DNA of 20,551 nucleotides, taken from positions 1-20,551 of the IMG/VR virus record IMGVR_UViG_3300033156_000875. One strand, written 5' to 3'. This stretch comes from a virus. Of the stretch, positions 7,063 through 20,551 are shown in pieces. Both the position numbers and the translations under genes were made by a program. Each line of letters opens with the position of its first letter. Within the stretch, counting starts at the first letter, position 1. The notes below the pieces were generated by a model that ran no database searches, was not told the DNA's origin, and saw nothing but the letters and a program-made list of their open reading frames with translations.

Positions 7063-7090
7063 GTTAGGGGGCTTTAATTAGTCCCCTAAC
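7063..7090 (+). terminator. Stem-loop after major capsid gene
   Basis: The arms 7063-7073 (GTTAGGGGGCT) and 7080-7090 (AGTCCCCTAAC) pair over 11 bp with one G-U, around a 6-base loop. The 3' side is followed by CCTTCCCTTT rather than a run of T, so this is more likely an attenuator or mRNA 3'-end stabiliser than a strong intrinsic terminator. It sits 25 bases after the capsid stop and before a gene on the same strand. Confidence 0.6.
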
Positions 7091-9500: not shown

Positions 9501-9588
9501 AAGGGTATTTTAAGCTATGAGTGCAAGAGAAAAGCACTTATACGGGATGTATGTACCCCTAAAACAGTGAGAATAACCCTTTATTTTT
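9500..9588 (+). terminator. Structured intergenic region, possible terminator, before tail tube gene
   Basis: Outer arms AAAGGGT (9500-9506) and ACCCTTT (9576-9582) pair over 7 bp, extended by ATT/AAT past one bulged base, and are followed by ATTTTT (9583-9588). Inside is a 9-bp hairpin, 9516-9524 with 9534-9542 (one G-U, 9-base loop), then a small GGG/CCC hairpin (9544-9546 with 9556-9558 or 9557-9559). The shape is a three-way junction ending in T-run, so it may act as a terminator for the connector block. It contains the promoter-like element described separately. It has no T-arm or anticodon layout, so it is not a tRNA. Confidence 0.4.
9529..9550 (+). promoter_or_regulatory. Promoter-like element, copy A (+), before tail tube gene
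   Basis: GAAAAGCACTTATACGGG (9529-9546) is identical over 18 bases to the reverse strand at 18451-18468, and its 3' half TTATACGGGATGT recurs at 14382-14394. It lies about 58 bases before the tail tube ATG and points towards it. No convincing -35 box is seen 16-18 bases upstream of TATACG. The core CACTTATACGGGA is reminiscent of single-subunit phage RNA polymerase promoters (T7: CACTATAGGGA). Promoter function is inferred. Confidence 0.4.
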
Positions 9589-10044: not shown

Positions 10045-10067
10045 AGGGGAGACAACGTGTCTCCCCT
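10045..10067 (+). terminator. Hairpin after tail tube gene
   Basis: The arms AGGGGAGACA (10045-10054) and TGTCTCCCCT (10058-10067) pair perfectly over 10 bp around a 3-base loop, followed by ATATTTCTT. It lies 6 bases after the tube gene stop and 31 bases before the chaperone gene. The stem is strong and GC-rich but the T-run is poor, so partial termination or mRNA protection is more likely than full termination, since the tail genes downstream need expression. Confidence 0.65.
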
Positions 10068-10865: not shown

Positions 10866-13324
10866 ACTTCCTATCTGCAAGTGTAGAGATTGATGTAAAT
10901 AAAGAAGAAGCACGGAGAGAAGTTACTGAAATTCAATCTCATTTCAAAAGAACAATAGAAAAGATGGAAAGACAAGCTCGTTCTATGTCTACAACTGTAG
11001 GAAGAGCTTTTAGGTCCATGGCTTCTGGAGCAATTGGAGCTTTTCAATCTATAGTTAGAAAAGCGAGATGGGCAGGACTTGCTATCGCAGGAATATTTGT
11101 AGCAGCAGTTCGAAAAGCAGCTATACAAGAAAAAGCTTTAGCCAATCTTGAAATTGTTTTAAGGTCGACCGGGCACGCTGCTAATTTAAGTAAGAAAGAA
11201 CTAGTAGATTTTTCTAGAGAATTACAAAGAATGACAATCTTTGGAGATGAAACTATTCAGAAAGTACAGGCTCTGTTACTGACGTTCAAAGATATTAAAG
11301 GAGATCAATTCAAAAGAACTACAAGAGCAATTTTGGATATGTCAGTAGCTATGGCTGCCGTAAATGGAACATCTGTTGATTTGCGATCCGCTACAATACA
11401 ACTAGGTAAAGCACTAAATGATCCAATTGCTAACCTTGGTGCTTTATCTCGTGCAGGAGTTCAATTTACCGAAAAACAGAAGGATATGATAAAAACGTTA
11501 TGGGAAAGTGGGAGAAAAACAGAAGCTCAGCGTATAATTCTTGCGGAACTTGAATCCCAATTCGGCGGAATGGCAAGTGAAACTGATACTCTTATAAGTA
11601 AACTGGAACAAATGAAGAATGCAGTTGGCGATGCCGCGGAAGCATTTGGTGAACCCTTTCTTGATCCTATAAAAAAAGCTGCTGATGCAATTAGGGATTG
11701 GGCAATAGAAAATGAAGAGAAAATAAATAGATGGGCAAGAATTCTTACCGAAAAAGTTGATCACGTTATAGAAAAAATTAAAGATTTATATCACGTGTTT
11801 GAAACAGAAGGATTTAAGGCGGGAATGGATATTGTTGGAAAGGAAGTAAGCATACTTCTTGCTGGGATTGTTGATTCTTTTGCAATTGCAGGTATAGCAG
11901 CAGGTAAGGCTTTTCTACGGGGATTAGGATTTGGTAAACCAAGTTCTAAAGAAATTTTTGAGCGTTGGGCTGAAGAAAGAGGTTTAACTCTAGAAGAAGC
12001 TAAGAAAAAAGGTACGTATATGCCCCCGGATGTTCGTAAACGGATAGAGCGGGAGCTTGTGCTAGAACAATTGCAGAAAGAAATAGGTGCAGTGGAATTA
12101 CTAGGAGCCGTATGGAAGCGTACTGGAGAAAAAATGAGGGAGGCTATTCCTCCAAGACCTACAGTAGAACAAAAGAAATGGGAAGTACCGGATGCTAAAT
12201 GGTTTGATGTTACTGCTCCTTTAAGTTTTGAAGGCCTCAATGTACAAGAACAAATTCAAGATGTTGAGAAAGCAAAAACAGAAAGTTATAATAGGTTGCA
12301 GGAATCTGGCGAACAGCTTCAGGAACAATTTAGGAAAGGAACAGAAGGTACAACTCAACATACTATTGAACAAACTCAAAAACAAGAGGAAGCTTATGGA
12401 AGAATGTTTGAAGCACTCATGGAAAAATCTTCAGAATATTATGATAAAAATAAAGAAGCAGCAGAAAAAGCAGAAGATGCAAGAGAAGAAGCAACCAATG
12501 CCATTTCCAGAATGTATGATGAAGTACAAAGTAAAGCAGAAGGTTATTATGATTGGGAAAGAGGAGTTATAGAAGTTCAAATTGACTCCTTTAGAAAAGC
12601 TATCGAACAAGCCGGAATGATGTCCCCTGCTATAGATGCACTTATTCAGAAGTGGGAGGAGTATAAATTAAAACAAATCGAAATTCGAGAAAGTGCCTTT
12701 GCTGCACTTATCCAGCCACTCGAAGAGTGGGGAGAAAGAGCAGGAAATATTTGGGAAAGAATTGGCGAGGCAGCTACTTCTACTTTAGACAATGTTACCG
12801 ATAAACTTGTTGATATGATAAATGAAGGAAAAGCAGATTGGAGAGAATTAGGTAGAACTGCTTTGAGAGCATTGGAGGAAATTCTAGTTAAAGTAACAAT
12901 GATAAAAGTTGCAATGGGAGCCCTTAATTTATTTGGAGGACTTTTTGGAGGACTTTTTGGTGGAGTTATGCCTGCCCCAACAGCATGGCCGGGCCAAACC
13001 GCTGCGTTAGCTCATACTGGTGGAACCGTAGGTGCATTAACTCAGAAAAGAAAAGTAAGTCCTCTCGCTTTTATAGGAGCAGAAAAATATCATGAAGGTG
13101 GTATTATTGGTTTGGCGGCAAACGAAGTTCCTATTATTGCAGAGAAAGGAGAAAGGATTCTTAAAAAAGGAGAATCTGCTCCTTCTATTAATGTCCAAGT
13201 GATTGATAATTCAACGAGAATGACTCCAGTAAGGCAAAGAACAAACTTGACTAAAGAAGGGATTCTCCAAATTATTCTGGAGGACCAAAATAATCCTAAT
13301 GGAGTCCTCCCTAAGATGGGTTAA
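10862..13324 (+). CDS. Tape measure protein
   Basis: The 820-residue ruler protein sets tail length and helps DNA entry. The N-terminus is a coiled coil (about 10-50), then a hydrophobic segment WAGLAIAGIFVAAV (70-83). A block typical of prophage tape measures (TMP_2-like) follows at about 90-245 (LANLEIVLRSTGHAANLS, ATIQLGKALNDPIANLGAL, RAGVQFTEKQ). Long charged helices run from about 450 to 620. Near the C-terminus are ALNLFGGLFGGLFGG (a second membrane-active segment) and YHEGGIIGLAANEVPIIAEKGERIL, the lambda gpH-like end. By the usual 1.5 Angstrom per residue rule the tail would be about 120 nm. AAGGA (10849-10853) lies 8 bases upstream. The + and - frames inside it are shadows. Confidence 0.95.
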   Translation: MNFLSASVEIDVNKEEARREVTEIQSHFKRTIEKMERQARSMSTTVGRAFRSMASGAIGAFQSIVRKARWAGLAIAGIFVAAVRKAAIQEKALANLEIVLRSTGHAANLSKKELVDFSRELQRMTIFGDETIQKVQALLLTFKDIKGDQFKRTTRAILDMSVAMAAVNGTSVDLRSATIQLGKALNDPIANLGALSRAGVQFTEKQKDMIKTLWESGRKTEAQRIILAELESQFGGMASETDTLISKLEQMKNAVGDAAEAFGEPFLDPIKKAADAIRDWAIENEEKINRWARILTEKVDHVIEKIKDLYHVFETEGFKAGMDIVGKEVSILLAGIVDSFAIAGIAAGKAFLRGLGFGKPSSKEIFERWAEERGLTLEEAKKKGTYMPPDVRKRIERELVLEQLQKEIGAVELLGAVWKRTGEKMREAIPPRPTVEQKKWEVPDAKWFDVTAPLSFEGLNVQEQIQDVEKAKTESYNRLQESGEQLQEQFRKGTEGTTQHTIEQTQKQEEAYGRMFEALMEKSSEYYDKNKEAAEKAEDAREEATNAISRMYDEVQSKAEGYYDWERGVIEVQIDSFRKAIEQAGMMSPAIDALIQKWEEYKLKQIEIRESAFAALIQPLEEWGERAGNIWERIGEAATSTLDNVTDKLVDMINEGKADWRELGRTALRALEEILVKVTMIKVAMGALNLFGGLFGGLFGGVMPAPTAWPGQTAALAHTGGTVGALTQKRKVSPLAFIGAEKYHEGGIIGLAANEVPIIAEKGERILKKGESAPSINVQVIDNSTRMTPVRQRTNLTKEGILQIILEDQNNPNGVLPKMG

Positions 13325-14325: not shown

Positions 14326-14428
14326 TTTAAGTGCTTCTTTAATACTACCCCTATTATGATATACATTTTTAGTTTTTTCCATTATACGGGATGTCAGGGC
14401 CCTTAAATACAAAGATAGAGAAGGAGAA
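14326..14428 (+). promoter_or_regulatory. Intergenic region with promoter-like element, copy B (+)
   Basis: A 103-base gap in an otherwise tightly packed tail operon. TTATACGGGATGT (14382-14394) repeats the core at 9539-9551. It is followed by the palindrome AGGGCCCT (14396-14403), then TAAATACAAAGATAG and AAGGAG. This order (TATACGGG, AGGGCC, TAA, AAAGAT, AAGGAG, ATG) is also seen on the - strand before the 18410 gene. The GGG lies 41 bases before the ATG at 14429. TTTTTAGTTTTTT (14366-14378) precedes the core. Promoter function is inferred. Confidence 0.4.
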
Positions 14429-14812
14429 ATGAATAATAAGGAATTATATTCTGATTTAATTGGTAAACCATATATTGATGGGGAAAGGAATTGTTGGACG
14501 TTTGTAAAAGAAGCTGCTGAAAGAGTAGGTATTTTTCTTCCAGATTACTCCGTTCCTGATAACCATGAAGAGTTAACTTCACTCATTAACTCGGAAAAAC
14601 ACGCCTATAAGAAGATTAACAAACCAGAACCTCACTGTTTGGTTTTATTCCGAATCCCATACCCTCGTAAAAGACTTGGTTGGCATGTAGGTTTTATGAT
14701 TGATAATACTCACTTTATTCATTGTACACGAAGAAATGGAGTAAACATAACTTCAATCAACAACCCACTTTATTTTTTGTTGCGTGAAGGTTTTTACAAA
14801 TGCAAATCATAA
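14429..14812 (+). CDS. NlpC/P60-type tail peptidase, gpK-like
   Basis: A 127-residue cysteine peptidase of the NlpC/P60 fold, equivalent to the C-terminal domain of lambda gpK. It probably cleaves peptidoglycan stem peptides or acts in tail-tip assembly. The catalytic Cys is C22 in RNCWTFVKEAA and the His is H86 in WHVGFMIDN. H98 (HFIHC) is the likely third polar residue. There is no JAMM (Mov34) domain, which is fused in lambda gpK, so this is the peptidase domain alone. AAGGAG (14421-14426) is only 2 bases from the ATG, but no other start fits. The gene overlaps the J-like gene by 13 bases. Confidence 0.9.
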   Translation: MNNKELYSDLIGKPYIDGERNCWTFVKEAAERVGIFLPDYSVPDNHEELTSLINSEKHAYKKINKPEPHCLVLFRIPYPRKRLGWHVGFMIDNTHFIHCTRRNGVNITSINNPLYFLLREGFYKCKS

Positions 14813-17800
14813 TTCAAAAAAATCCATTAGACCCAAAAGAAAGAGAAATTATTACTACTCCTTCCAATGGGAGAACTGTGGAGGAGATAATTAAATCTTT
14901 TGATTTTCTAGATATAGAAAAAACAAAAGCTCATGTAAATGGATTTCCTCTCGAAAAATTCCAATATGAACTTTGGGTAACAGCAGAGAATGATTTAATT
15001 ACTCTTGTTCCGGAAGTGGAGGATCCTATATCATTAGGCTTCGCCTTATCTAATATGTTATTTACAGGGGCAACAGCAACTTTTCTTGGTGGAATTGGTT
15101 TAAGCGCAGCTATTGGTTACGGAATGTATGTAGGAGCCGGAGCATTAATGCGTGCACTAGGACCAAAGCCTGAGGAACAGCCTGATATTTCTGCTTCTCC
15201 AACATATAGTTTCAATCAAAGAACACTTCAACAAGAAGGAATAAAAGTTCCAAGAGTGTACGGAAAAATTCTTACTCCGGGCAATGTAATAAGTTCTTGG
15301 ACTGTTACTTCGAGTAAAACTGAAAGGTTAAAAGGTGTAATAGCATTAGGTCGAGGTCCTCATAAAGGAATAGTAGAAGGGAGTATACGAGTTAATGATC
15401 AGGTTGCGGATAACTTCCCTGGTTTTACTACTTATGAAAGAAAAGGCACGATTGAACAGACGGCAATATTTAGTGAGGAAAAAGTTGAATTTCGTCCAAA
15501 TCGAGAAGTAAAGAATTCTAAAGGGCCGGTAACTTGGACAACTCCACATAATAATTTTGATAAATTAGAAATTACTCTAGAGTATTCAGGATATTACTAT
15601 GATAAATCAGGGGCTTTGACAACTCCCGACGTTGATATTCAAATTGAAATTAGTGAGCATGGGAAAAACGATTGGCACAATTTAGTCAATGGCTATGAAG
15701 TTTCTTGTCATCCAACCAAGAAATATAAGACATGGGTAAATACTGGAAACTATTATGGCGGAAGTCCTGTAACAATTGAAAATGGAAAGTCCTACGATAT
15801 TAGAGTTACAAAGAAGGATCCTGACAGAAATGAATCAAACTGGAAAAATTATATCGGCATTCACTCTATTCGAGAAGTTCATGATATTGCGTTCAAACAT
15901 CCTGAAGTAGCTCTACTGGGATTTTCAGCTTTGGCTTCTGAACAATTGAACGGAAGTCTTAAAATCACTTCTGTTTCAGAAGGCAGAGTTATGCTTGTAT
16001 ATGACGGAAGTTCTTGGAACATAGAATACTCCAATAACCCGGCTTGGACAATTATTGACTTACTTTGTCGCCCAGTAATTAAGGGGAAAGGTTCTCCAGA
16101 AGATCCTTATACCGTCGAAAGGTATGAAGGTGTTGATTTGTCAAGAATAACTCCTTATTTGGAAAATTGGTATGATTATGCTCAATGGTGTGATGAATTA
16201 GTTGATGATGGGGAAGGAGGAACCGAAAAAAGAATAACATTCAACGGATTATATGATAAAGTAGATAATATTTGGGATGCTATTAATCAAGTTTGTTTTG
16301 TTGGAAGGTGTGAAGTTCATCGAAGAGGAATTAATTATGACGTAATAGTGGATAAGAAATGGACTACAGCCCCTGTTCAATTATTCAGTGCAGGAAATAT
16401 GATTCCCGGAACATATAAAAGGGAATGGATCAGTGAAAAGGAGAAAATCAGTGAACTTGAAGTTACATTCATGGATGAGAAGAATGGGTATGAACTTACT
16501 CCTATATCATACGTTAATACACATGTAAACAGTGGGAAGAAGAAAAATCTCAAAGGTTTAGGAATAACTTCAGTATCGCAGGCTTGGAGAACTGCATACT
16601 ATGAATTAGCTAAAAACCAAGTAATCAATTCTATCACCACTTTTGATACCGATATTGATGCCTCAACTATCTCCAAAGGCGATGTTATTAGAATAATTCC
16701 TCCAGAGGAATCGGGCGGAAGAATAGTTGCTTATCATAGTGCAAGTGACATTAACAAAGAAGATGATATAATTGTTGTGGATAGGGATTTAACTGATTCT
16801 GATTCAGATACCATATTAGTCAGAATGCACGATCCAGCTACTAATGAGGATGTTGTTGAAACTCATACAATCAAATCAATTGAAAACAATTGGGTTACTA
16901 TAAATGGTACTTTTACAGTACAGCCATCAGAAGGCGATCTTTACGGATTTATCCCGACTTCCAAACTAGAAGAATTCAGAGTAATTGGAATAACCCATCA
17001 CGGGGACATGAAACATACTATCCAAGCAGTCGAGTATTCTGATGATGTTTACTTAGGCGATGAAGGAACACCTACTGTACCAATTATCGGATATAATAGT
17101 CCCGAATCTAATCCGACTCCAAACTTTACAAAACCCATCTCTCTAAATGATATAAGAACTTTGATTGGTGGAGAGGACATCGAAAATCGAGAGCCTAGTA
17201 TGGATATTCCTTGGAGGAGTAATCTTGAGTTCGTTAGTAACTATCCTTCCGCCGGTTATGTTAGTTGGAGAAATAAAGATTATGGAGGAGACGATACTCC
17301 AATAGTAATCTCCTTTGAGGATGAACATTATGAAATTCCACTGAGTAATACGGATGAGAAATATATTTACTGGGACGTAACTGATCCTGAAGAATTCAAA
17401 GTAACAAGTACTTTATCTGATATAACAAATTATCCGGGAGAAAGATGGATAGTATGTGTAAATGATAACGGTACTGCAATTCCAACTGTAAGCATGAGTT
17501 CGTTACATGGAGGCTTAATTCAGGCAGGTACGATTACAGCGGAATATGGGCAGATTGCTGATGCAGCAATTACAAGTGCAAAGATTGCTTCGGCAGCAAT
17601 AACATCCGCAAAGATTGCTGATGCAGCAATAACATCCGCAAAGATTGCTGATGCAGCAATAACATCCGCAAAGATTGGCAATCTCCAGGTTGAGTCTGCT
17701 CATATAAAAAATTTGACGGTCGGTACGAACAAGATAGCAAACAATGCGGTGTCTTTTTGGGACGCAAATTCTGAGACTACAGTGGAAGAGGTAGGCGATT

Positions 17801-18114
17801 CGGCTTACGTTGACATATTGACTCTCACTATCACTACAACAGGAAAGCCAGTGTTGTTAACATTCAACGTCAATTATAGAGCATCTGCCGGTGATGCTAA
17901 ATGTAAATTCAGAGTTTTGGAGGACAGTACAATATTATTTACATCACCTTACGATTTGTATGTTACTGCTACGGGAGAGTTGAATTTCAACTTCAGCCTG
18001 AGAAGAACATCATCTGCCGGCGAACATGTTTTTCATTTTCAATGTAGGGCCGGACCAGGAAGCACAGTCTTATGCAGCGTAAGGTCTATCGTTGCTGTAG
18101 AACTTAAAAAATAA
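14800..18114 (+). CDS. Central tail fibre / tip attachment protein, gpJ-like with gpI-like N-terminus
   Basis: An 1104-residue tail-tip protein. Residues 1-72 look like a ubiquitin-like beta-grasp (MQIIIQKNPLDP ... NDLITLVPEV) and 78-120 are a hydrophobic, Gly/Ala-rich segment (LGGIGLSAAIGYGMYVGAG). Together these resemble lambda gpI, here fused to J. From about 140 the J-type hub begins (QRTLQQEGIKVPRVYGKIL) and continues through FHKPEV-like and DLLCRPV-like regions and fibronectin-like parts near 780-900. Residues 919-958 are four 10-residue repeats (IADAAITSAK), likely a beta-helical or triple-helical stalk. The last 130 residues form a beta-sandwich, the probable receptor-binding tip. GAAGG (14786-14790) lies 9 bases upstream. 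No separate gpI gene is present, which supports the fusion. Confidence 0.92.
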   Translation: MQIIIQKNPLDPKEREIITTPSNGRTVEEIIKSFDFLDIEKTKAHVNGFPLEKFQYELWVTAENDLITLVPEVEDPISLGFALSNMLFTGATATFLGGIGLSAAIGYGMYVGAGALMRALGPKPEEQPDISASPTYSFNQRTLQQEGIKVPRVYGKILTPGNVISSWTVTSSKTERLKGVIALGRGPHKGIVEGSIRVNDQVADNFPGFTTYERKGTIEQTAIFSEEKVEFRPNREVKNSKGPVTWTTPHNNFDKLEITLEYSGYYYDKSGALTTPDVDIQIEISEHGKNDWHNLVNGYEVSCHPTKKYKTWVNTGNYYGGSPVTIENGKSYDIRVTKKDPDRNESNWKNYIGIHSIREVHDIAFKHPEVALLGFSALASEQLNGSLKITSVSEGRVMLVYDGSSWNIEYSNNPAWTIIDLLCRPVIKGKGSPEDPYTVERYEGVDLSRITPYLENWYDYAQWCDELVDDGEGGTEKRITFNGLYDKVDNIWDAINQVCFVGRCEVHRRGINYDVIVDKKWTTAPVQLFSAGNMIPGTYKREWISEKEKISELEVTFMDEKNGYELTPISYVNTHVNSGKKKNLKGLGITSVSQAWRTAYYELAKNQVINSITTFDTDIDASTISKGDVIRIIPPEESGGRIVAYHSASDINKEDDIIVVDRDLTDSDSDTILVRMHDPATNEDVVETHTIKSIENNWVTINGTFTVQPSEGDLYGFIPTSKLEEFRVIGITHHGDMKHTIQAVEYSDDVYLGDEGTPTVPIIGYNSPESNPTPNFTKPISLNDIRTLIGGEDIENREPSMDIPWRSNLEFVSNYPSAGYVSWRNKDYGGDDTPIVISFEDEHYEIPLSNTDEKYIYWDVTDPEEFKVTSTLSDITNYPGERWIVCVNDNGTAIPTVSMSSLHGGLIQAGTITAEYGQIADAAITSAKIASAAITSAKIADAAITSAKIADAAITSAKIGNLQVESAHIKNLTVGTNKIANNAVSFWDANSETTVEEVGDSAYVDILTLTITTTGKPVLLTFNVNYRASAGDAKCKFRVLEDSTILFTSPYDLYVTATGELNFNFSLRRTSSAGEHVFHFQCRAGPGSTVLCSVRSIVAVELKK
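17554..17673 (+). repeat. Four tandem 30-bp repeats in the tail fibre gene
   Basis: The units start at 17554, 17584, 17614 and 17644, each coding for I-A-(D/S)-A-A-I-T-S-A-K. Units 3 and 4 are identical in DNA; units 1 and 2 differ at a few bases. A fifth, degraded unit starts at 17674 (IGNLQVESAH). Such repeats are common in J-type fibre stalks, and the near-identity suggests recent copy-number change. Confidence 0.95.
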
Positions 18115-18170: not shown

Positions 18171-18410
18171 TTATAACCTTTCATTTCTCCGTGGAAGAAG
18201 GGCAAGGATGCCTCTTCCATTTACAAACAAAAACTTTAAGAAAAAATTAATTCCTATTGGAACATTTGGCATTTCATCTAACTCATCTGAAATAATTATA
18301 GGTTCCAAAGTATCCTCTGAATTAATTGGAACATTTGGCATTTCCTCGTTCAAATCTTCTAGAGTATCCTCTGAATTGATTGGAACATTTGACATATCGT
18401 CTTTACACAT
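18171..18410 (-). CDS. Small acidic repeat protein, function unknown
   Basis: A 79-residue protein beginning MCKDDMSNVPINSEDTLEDL. It has two and a half copies of a unit NVPINSEDTLE in 18- and 23-residue spacings, rich in Asp and Glu, then a hydrophobic/basic end (INFFLKFLFVNGRGILALLP). AAGGAGG lies about 7 bases before the ATG, a near-perfect ribosome-binding site, and the 60-bp repeat with promoter-like element lies just upstream. Both support this strand over the overlapping + frame 18127-18438. Repeat lengths (54 and 69 bases) keep the frame. It faces the fibre gene tail to tail. No function can be assigned; the C-terminal hydrophobic part could touch a membrane. Confidence 0.6.
   Translation of the reverse strand: MCKDDMSNVPINSEDTLEDLNEEMPNVPINSEDTLEPIIISDELDEMPNVPIGINFFLKFLFVNGRGILALLPRRNERL
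18256..18395 (-). repeat. Imperfect tandem repeats inside the small acidic gene
   Basis: A unit of about 33 bases (+ strand AGTATCCTCTGAATT, then ATTGGAACATTTG) occurs at 18309-18341 and 18363-18395. A partial third copy, ATTGGAACATTTGGCATTTC, is at 18256-18275. Offsets are 54 and 69 bases, both multiples of three. They encode the NVPINSEDTLE repeats. Confidence 0.85.
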
Positions 18411-18437
18411 CCCTTCCCTCCTTACAATCTTTTATTA

Positions 18438-18468
18438 GGCCCTTTCAGTGCCCGTATAAGTGCTTTTC
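18438..18468 (-). promoter_or_regulatory. Promoter-like element, copy E (-), before acidic gene
   Basis: Read on the - strand, GAAAAGCACTTATACGGG (18468-18451) is identical to 9529-9546 on the + strand. It is followed by CACTGAAAGGGCC, TAATAAAAGATTG and AAGGAGG. The GGG lies about 43 bases before the ATG at 18410, almost the same distance as in copy B. The element overlaps the end of the 60-bp repeat. Confidence 0.45.
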
Positions 18469-18516
18469 CTTCCCCGACCCCTAATTTACCCTACCTAATA
18501 ATAGTTCTTTAATTAT
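18457..18516 (-). repeat. 60-bp perfect direct repeat, copy 1
   Basis: It is identical base for base to 18845-18904. It lies in the gap upstream of the acidic gene. Read on the - strand it starts ATAATTAAAGAACTATTATT and ends GGAAAAGCACTTA. Outside the 60 bp similarity continues weakly (TATAGGGTA here, TTTACGGGATA in the other copy). Non-coding on both strands as far as I can see. Confidence 0.97.
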
Positions 18517-18530
18517 AGTACCCTATAACC

Positions 18531-18543
18531 GCCCTCAGAGGGC
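18531..18543 (-). terminator. Weak hairpin after the 71-residue gene
   Basis: GCCCT (18531-18535) and AGGGC (18539-18543) pair over 5 bp with a 3-base loop, 12 bases past the stop of the - strand gene at 18556. There is no T-run on the 3' side (- strand GGTTATAGGG), so termination is doubtful. The TATAAT-like string just beyond (- strand, about 18518-18513) is the only sigma70-like -10 in this gap and lacks a -35. Confidence 0.3.
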
Positions 18544-18555
18544 CTCAGAAAACTT

Positions 18556-18771
18556 TTATTTGTACGGTCTATACGGATATAGTGGACATGCCAGATCCGT
18601 ACAATTTCTAATATCAGAAGCAAAGGAAGAAGCATAACCTATGCACTCAAGACAGAAAGCATTTACTCCAGCTCTAAGACTTCTCCCTTCCATAGCTTTT
18701 TCATATTTTTCCTTATGATGTTTTGGTATTTGTTTCAATCGTTCCATAATTTGTTTTTGTTGCTTATTCAT
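18556..18771 (-). CDS. Small four-Cys phage protein
   Basis: A 71-residue protein with a basic helical N-terminus (MNKQQKQIMERLKQIPKHHK) and a C-terminal Cys cluster: C40-x2-C43 (FCLECIGY), C57 (IRNCTDL), C62 (ACPLYPYRPY). The pattern 'a....C.eC.g......vr.C....CPLyPyR' is one I recognise from many small uncharacterised phage proteins, where it probably binds zinc. The ribosome-binding site is modest (AGAGGGA about 7 bases before the ATG). The second copy of the 60-bp repeat and a hairpin leader lie upstream. Function unknown. Confidence 0.8.
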   Translation of the reverse strand: MNKQQKQIMERLKQIPKHHKEKYEKAMEGRSLRAGVNAFCLECIGYASSFASDIRNCTDLACPLYPYRPYK

Positions 18772-18814
18772 CTTTTCCCTCTTATTTTAAGAAGCTGAAT
18801 GACGTGTCCCGCAA

Positions 18815-18840
18815 AAGGCCCATAAAGGGCCTTATACGTG
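18815..18840 (-). promoter_or_regulatory. Promoter-like element, copy F (-), with leader hairpin
   Basis: On the - strand AAAAGCACTTACAAG is followed by CACGTATAAGG (18840-18830), a diverged form of the element. The arms AAGGCCC and GGGCCTT (18833-18827 and 18821-18815) pair over 7 bp around a 5-base loop and are followed by TTGCGGG. The element lies about 60 bases before the ATG at 18771. It is the weakest of the four copies and is recognised mainly by its place next to the repeat. Confidence 0.35.
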
Positions 18841-18844
18841 CTTG

Positions 18845-18904
18845 TAAGTGCTTTTCCTTCCCCGACCCCTAATTTACCCTACCTAATAATAGTTCTTTAA
18901 TTAT
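18845..18904 (-). repeat. 60-bp perfect direct repeat, copy 2
   Basis: It is identical to 18457-18516 at an offset of 388 bases, and lies in the 189-base gap between the methyltransferase stop and the small four-Cys gene. Both copies are upstream of a - strand gene and in the same orientation. An entirely conserved 60 bp in non-coding DNA implies recent duplication or functional constraint. Confidence 0.97.
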
Positions 18905-18960
18905 CTATCCCGTAAAGCCCCTTTTATCACGTTAGATTCGAAGATATAATCTTATTTTGA

Positions 18961-20551
18961 TTAATGTTGATAAAGTTTTATTGTATCCTTTAAAAATCCA
19001 AATTTATAAACACCTTCTCGCATCCTTTCCTCAAATTTCTTATAAAGCTGTACAAAGTTATTATACTGATTTGAGTACTGTTTCTTGAATAAAGGTTTTA
19101 ACTGTGCCCAACCAGCATCCCAGGCCTGTAAGTGCCTTTCGGGATGCTTTTTATGATACTCTTCTCTTTTGGCCATACTGGCCCGTATTAGATTTTGCGC
19201 AGCTTCCAAAACAGCTTTTGCATCAGGAGATAAGGGAGTAGATTGTAATAAAGTATAAACGTATCTATCTTTTTCATCCCTAACATCTTGCATCATTTCT
19301 CTAAAGGAGTATTTTTCAGCCAGTTGTTTCATCTCACTATTTGATAGGAAGAAGAATTCATTTTTTATGTCCCAAAGTTTTCCTTTGTATTTAACTTGTC
19401 GGAGGGAGGATTGTTGACTAAATAGTGAGTATATGATAGCATCATTATTCCATTGTTCATAGTCGGGATGAGAAGTATTATTGGGAGGAGAAGGACGATC
19501 ATTGAAAGTATACCATTTTACTTGTGGCGATCTTAATCCAGTATAAACTGAAGCACAAAATTTAAAATTTTCTTTACTTACTGGAATACAATTCCCTGCT
19601 ACTCCAGCTCCTGAAGTGAAATAACCAGAGGTTTTTGCAGTTCCAATATCATGACACGCAAGTTTGTTCAGTGAACCAAAACTTTCTTTATTATATAAAT
19701 TGGTTGACCCTGTGGAAAGTTTTAGTGCAGAAGATAATCGAGGGGAATCAAACTTTGTAAGTTCAAATTTACTCTGTCTTTTTACCCAACAACTTAAGGA
19801 TACATTTTTATACTCATGAAAAGTTTTTTTACCTATTTCTACTACTTTTCCTTCTCTTACTTCTCTAATTGGAAAAGTTTTCTTATTTGCTCCTTTTACA
19901 TTGCTTCGCCATATAACAAAAGTAACGGCCCATGATGCCACTAATCCAATAAAATCATCTGAAGGGAATAGAAATCCTGATACTGATGTAAAATTTGAAT
20001 ACAATTTCTTTCTTAGTTTATGAAAGGATCTATGCGTCATATATTTGGATGGTGCAATAATACCCATTACAATTTCTGTTTTTGGATATTTTTCCTTGAA
20101 CTGTAAAATTTTGAAAATAAATTGAGCATATAATTCTCCGGCACAACCTCCCATTTTGTTTCTTTTCATTTCAGTGTTTACTTCATTTCCAGTAACTTGT
20201 TCTTCCATATCCTTAATTAATCCAAATCGACCTCGACAACCATTACTTCTTCTATAAGGTGGATTAAGTAAAAAGAAAATTTTTCTTCCTTCTTTGAAAG
20301 CATTTTTCAAACCTAGAGGAACTCCTTTAGTTCCAGAACCTAATTCACCTATTGTATTTGGTATCGGACACTCACTTAGAAAATCATATTGAAAGATTTC
20401 CTTAGCTTCTCGATTATAGCCTGCGGCTTTAATGTCATTAATATCTCCTTGCTCCAACGTACTGAGATATAATTCCTTAAATTTATAATCGCGCGTAAGG
20501 TTGGCTGTTCCACAGCAACAATCCCAAACAACCCATTCATTCTTCCAATTT
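18961..20551 (-). CDS. N6-adenine DNA methyltransferase (5' end beyond window)
   Basis: The reading frame runs open to the right edge, so the gene is truncated at its 5' end; at least 529 residues are present. The SAM-binding motif I is VVWDCCCGTANLTRDY (window residues 7-22), followed by an acidic motif II/III region (STLEQGD, FQYDFL) and the catalytic motif IV NPPY (96-99), the gamma-type N6-adenine signature. GIIAPSKYMTHRSFHKLRKK and FLFPSDDF resemble later motifs. The C-terminal 200 residues (HPDYEQWNNDAIIYSLFSQQ, WDIKNEFFFLS, QAWDAGWAQLKPLF) are a helical region I associate with large phage methyltransferases and may hold target recognition. A TTG at 20457 is not the start, since motif I lies upstream. 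It probably protects phage DNA from host restriction. No restriction enzyme is seen beside it. Confidence 0.88.
   Translation of the reverse strand, partial: NWKNEWVVWDCCCGTANLTRDYKFKELYLSTLEQGDINDIKAAGYNREAKEIFQYDFLSECPIPNTIGELGSGTKGVPLGLKNAFKEGRKIFFLLNPPYRRSNGCRGRFGLIKDMEEQVTGNEVNTEMKRNKMGGCAGELYAQFIFKILQFKEKYPKTEIVMGIIAPSKYMTHRSFHKLRKKLYSNFTSVSGFLFPSDDFIGLVASWAVTFVIWRSNVKGANKKTFPIREVREGKVVEIGKKTFHEYKNVSLSCWVKRQSKFELTKFDSPRLSSALKLSTGSTNLYNKESFGSLNKLACHDIGTAKTSGYFTSGAGVAGNCIPVSKENFKFCASVYTGLRSPQVKWYTFNDRPSPPNNTSHPDYEQWNNDAIIYSLFSQQSSLRQVKYKGKLWDIKNEFFFLSNSEMKQLAEKYSFREMMQDVRDEKDRYVYTLLQSTPLSPDAKAVLEAAQNLIRASMAKREEYHKKHPERHLQAWDAGWAQLKPLFKKQYSNQYNNFVQLYKKFEERMREGVYKFGFLKDTIKLYQH

Follow-up and report, generated by a model that had tools for sequence, protein, structure and literature searches.

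Gene layout of the record

The window analysed here is the entire 20,551-bp virus record IMGVR_UViG_3300033156_000875. It holds the rightward late region of a tailed phage, with genes for terminase, portal, capsid, a likely tail tube (9604) and a lambda-type tape measure, followed by a gene resembling NlpC/P60 (14429) and one for a J-like tail tip protein (14800-18114). On the 3' side of the capsid and tail-tube genes there are strong hairpins with terminator-like calls (7063-7090 and 10045-10067, plus strand), and the J-like gene carries 30-nt tandem repeats of the ADAAITSAKI type (17552-17701, plus strand). The nearest IMG/VR relatives of the terminase are mostly 54-64% identical to it; two of them belong to genomes of about 56 kb with identical ends, of which one has a gene for family A DNA polymerase and the second one for a RecT-like protein. 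Given relatives of this size, the record is probably a fragment of a larger phage genome, so further copies of the element described below may sit beyond it, and the host is probably bacterial. Only 1006 of the 20,551 bases are non-coding. Convergent to the late region stands a leftward block that comprises, in reading order, genes C, B and A, and the features of this block are as follows.

18171 to 18410, minus strand: gene A, an ORF for a 79-aa acidic protein with three in-frame MPNVPINSEDTLE-like repeats; SD AAGGAGG; positive codon score, antisense ORF negative
18457 to 18516, minus strand: 60-bp unit, copy 1 (leader of gene A), matching copy 2 at 60/60 positions; continues unbroken into TACGGG (18451-18456)
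18531 to 18544, no strand assigned: hairpin GCCCT-CTG-AGGGC, in the gap that separates copy 1 from the stop of gene B
18556 to 18771, minus strand: gene B, an ORF for a 71-aa four-Cys protein (C-x2-C ... C-x4-C), homologous to one of the related phage G019
18817 to 18831, no strand assigned: hairpin GGCCC-loop-GGGCC with a 5-bp G+C stem, between copy 2 and gene B
18845 to 18904, minus strand: 60-bp unit, copy 2 (leader of gene B), matching copy 1 at 60/60 positions; at the 3' edge it passes into an imperfect 10-bp tandem, AAGCACTTAC AAGCACGTAT
18961 to 20551, minus strand: gene C, upstream of copy 2 and cut off at its 5' end by the contig edge; adenine-methyltransferase-like, with an NPPY motif, a weak match to Eco57I (E 0.019) and IMG/VR relatives of 42-60% identity

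Both A and B appear to be genuine genes, with positive codon scores, a worse score on the opposite strand in each case and, for A, a strong ribosome-binding sequence. A search for a family match to gene A found none, and comparison of the two proteins revealed no similarity, in agreement with the preliminary description, which had called the genes unrelated.

Two identical copies of a non-coding unit

The two copies, whose starts are 388 bp apart, show 0 differences in 60 bp and are the only full copies in the record. In shuffled versions of the window (60 order-1, 60 order-3 and 60 order-5 Markov shuffles, 180 in total) the longest exact direct repeat was 18 bp, so the 60-bp identity that had been noticed earlier stands. 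Both copies occupy non-coding gaps in sense orientation relative to the minus-strand genes, 46 nt before the ATG of gene A and 73 nt before that of gene B, which bears out the earlier remark that each lies upstream of a small minus-strand gene. The leader sequence downstream of the copy and the ribosome-binding sequence differ between the two genes. The copies are also the two most G-rich stretches of the window, with a |G4Hunter| of 1.76.

Identity stops sharply at both ends, the ungapped flanks matching at 10/40 positions upstream and 15/40 downstream. Where copy 1 reads AAGCACTTATACGGG at the 3' edge, copy 2 has AAGCACTTAC AAGCACGTAT, a 10-bp unit in imperfect tandem. Simple recent duplication of a longer segment would not produce such an edge, with near-random flanks and a 10-bp tandem change. 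The absence of any difference in 60 positions beside a tandem-changed edge points instead to a unit that alone was copied, or alone was kept uniform, and the suggestion that a control region had been copied or kept uniform thus gains support.

A diverged copy in front of the likely tail-tube gene

Copy 1 together with the next six bases ends in GAAAAGCACTTATACGGG, and this word recurs exactly (18/18) once more in the window, at 9529-9546 on the plus strand, within a diverged third copy that the preliminary description missed.

9504 to 9546, plus strand: diverged third copy, 43 nt, ahead of the likely tail-tube gene 9604; aligns locally to the unit with a score of 38 (p about 0.002)
14382 to 14394, plus strand: TTATACGGGATGT, identical to the sequence at the 3' edge of the third copy and followed after 34 nt by the NlpC/P60-like gene 14429; a weaker member

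In a scan of 1024 windows, the third copy was the best place outside the two copies to align to the unit. Matches to the 18-nt word with up to 3 mismatches are expected about 0.03 times, and words common to different gaps reached at most 13 nt in 150 shuffles, versus the 18 observed. The end of this shared word lies 57 nt before the start of the tail-tube gene. The third copy resembles the unit well in the 3' part only and does not retain the G tract. Every AAGCACTTA site in the window (4/4) falls in non-coding sequence, scarce as such sequence is here, which counts in favour of a control element. A minus-strand match at 14336 (p = 0.03) was rejected as a further copy because it ties with background windows. 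By these alignments, the element occurs beyond the leftward genes and also fronts a late structural gene.

Distribution of the unit and of gene B

The preliminary description proposed looking for the unit in the rest of the genome and in related phages. The former yielded the diverged third copy and no further full copy, and the latter yielded none in 20 relatives. Three 20-22-mers from the unit had no match in IMG/VR, a distant blastn to phages and plasmids returned only hits with E of at least 2, and Rfam gave only a sub-threshold whalefall-1 match, located elsewhere than the unit. The unit is therefore private to this phage among the relatives, phages, plasmids and IMG/VR contigs searched; these searches used exact 20-22-mers or word-11 blast, which strongly diverged versions would escape, and the collections may omit records very near the window.

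Several candidates from outside the record were rejected. A 21-mer match in Flavobacterium fontis (genome_contigs), in a gap upstream of a gene, shows no likeness beyond the 21 bases, and chance is plausible. The 17-mer AAAAGCACTTATACGGG has two IMG/VR matches, both within genes. A G-rich stretch after the G019 homologue of gene B seemed unit-like by eye, but its alignment gave p = 0.5. The relative G003 has a perfect 29-bp repeat pair (L030:12541-12569 and 12613-12641, 72 bp apart) in the intergenic space of two convergent genes, and AAGCACTTA on one strand of this pair overlaps at about chance level.

The homologue of gene B in G019, a related 56-kb phage, is 44% identical (E 5e-13); over the full length the identity is 40%, with 4/4 Cys conserved. 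It sits in another operon, among co-directional genes and well away from the J gene, behind a short leader that lacks the 60-bp unit, which indicates that gene B and the leader are separable. A relative of the gene A/B region was sought for comparison of the same site, and none was found. G019 has other features of its own: a GCCC-NTAA-GGGCGGAAAG-like hairpin with a ribosome-binding sequence before several small genes (L031:14030-14065, 15072-15100, 15170-15200 and 15995-16030, plus strand), and an unusual terminase gene (L031:8381-11572, minus strand). The product of this gene is 1063 aa long and contains an intein splicing domain as well as a second insert that matches LAGLIDADG; antisense within the gene lies an HNH endonuclease ORF (L031 10684-11262, plus strand).

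Possible role and origin of the unit

We give about an even chance to the reading that the 60-bp unit is a putative control leader specific to this phage and recognised at the DNA level, most likely as a promoter or operator. Both copies lie upstream and in sense orientation, and the shared word recurs before a third gene. Because the copies stand at unequal distances from the ATG (46 and 73 nt) and the genes have separate ribosome-binding sequences, a DNA-level site is favoured over a translation signal acting at a fixed distance. The putative conserved core would be GAAAAGCACTTATACGGG, which copy 1 and the third copy have in full, and the upstream half of the unit is rich in G; the unit would drive or time separate genes, B and A leftward and, through the diverged copy, the tail-tube gene rightward. 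The identity of the leftward copies may reflect recent copying of one to the other's position or recombination that keeps both uniform. Against this reading, the third copy shares only the 3' part well and no close relative has the element, so that functional constraint is inseparable from recent copying. A sigma-70 promoter scan, which covers the sigma-70 consensus and not phage or other host factors, called no promoter in either copy. A fuller version, in which some factor of the phage or the host recognises a long, G-rich element of non-sigma-70 type around the core, coordinates the leftward accessory genes with the late tail gene and leaves recombination to keep the copies uniform, is speculative and on balance improbable.

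The main rival, which we regard as somewhat unlikely, is that leader and gene B, a 388-bp segment, entered at a leader that was already present, through homologous recombination or misaligned exchange, so that the identical copies mark the borders and share no control role beyond that for gene A. The abrupt end of identity on both sides agrees with such an event, as do the different operon of the B homologue, which implies that B has moved, and the RecT-family recombinase encoded by a relative; the core ahead of the tail gene 9604 would be left unexplained. Distinctly less probable is a leader acting at the RNA level, where the G-rich tract GGGTAAATTAGGGGTCGGGGAAGG would form a G-quadruplex in the mRNA, or the leader a fold, controlling translation or decay of B and A. 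The sole four-tract G motif and the two highest-scoring G4Hunter windows do fall in the copies, and the leader with copy 1 gives a better fold than shuffled sequence (z -3.2); however, that fold draws on sequence outside the repeat, the 60-nt unit by itself does not outdo shuffled sequence (z +1.2), nothing stands out in the leader with copy 2 (z -1.4) and the third copy lacks the G tract. An assembly artefact, in which the assembler joined pieces at the 60-bp word or duplicated it, is very unlikely: the record is indeed a metagenome contig, but the flanks hold different intact genes, each with its own ribosome-binding site, the third copy points to genuine recurrence of the element, and 60 bp is below the length of the usual short reads.

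The preliminary description had raised the idea of a moron-type cassette that spreads within the genome. The unrelated genes and the copied non-coding upstream region hold good, whereas the cassette of promoter, small gene and hairpin finds no support. Neither a sigma-70 promoter nor an intrinsic terminator was called on the minus strand over 18411-18960, and no intrinsic terminator was called at the end of A or B. The expectation that every copy precedes a small accessory gene fails at 9504-9546, where a structural tail gene follows, the G019 homologue of gene B does without the leader, and none of the other genomes searched has a copy. A shared on/off control sequence is most likely, ahead of a travelling gene cassette.

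Should the unit prove to be a promoter or operator, it would offer a sequence-level entry to the way in which a little-known group of phages regulates late and accessory genes in the absence of recognisable sigma-70 promoters, as well as a motif with which to search more complete relatives. Otherwise it would be a routine copied leader in a mosaic phage genome.

Comparison with known systems

The closest published kind that we found is the SAS/ESAS of cluster K mycobacteriophages, in which the 13-bp SAS lies at the ribosome-binding site in many copies and the ESAS consists of 17-bp inverted repeats (PMC3203893). As here, these are short repeated non-coding sequences before unrelated genes of tailed phages, mostly in one orientation, with a proposed role in DNA binding or expression control (PMC3203893). 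The present unit differs in its 60-bp length, its position 46-73 nt upstream of the ATG and its two perfect copies and one diverged copy. The SAS consensus GGGATAGGAGCCC has two matches with 3 mismatches in the window, against a chance mean of 2.06, and neither is in the leaders.

Phage promoters repeated at several genes provide a second comparison. Contig L024 (IMGVR_UViG_3300033148_008526), which has a gene C homologue, carries five promoter-like leaders before separate genes.

6208, 8969, 11544, 12266 and 17083, plus strand: L024 leader copies, 0-14 mismatches in 47 bp

They set a precedent for near-identical leaders before several separate genes of one such phage, a pattern that the window shares with its two perfect copies and one diverged copy. 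The L024 leaders have a clear TTTGCA-17-TATAAT, in contrast to the unit, where the sigma-70 scan called no such hexamers.

In the moron cassettes of lambdoid phages, as with A and B, small accessory genes stand next to late genes and have a leader of their own. Unlike these cassettes, the window has no called promoter-terminator pair, its element also fronts a structural gene, and gene B occurs without the element in a relative. Repeated control elements in phages are a known kind of thing, and the unit is a private member of that kind.
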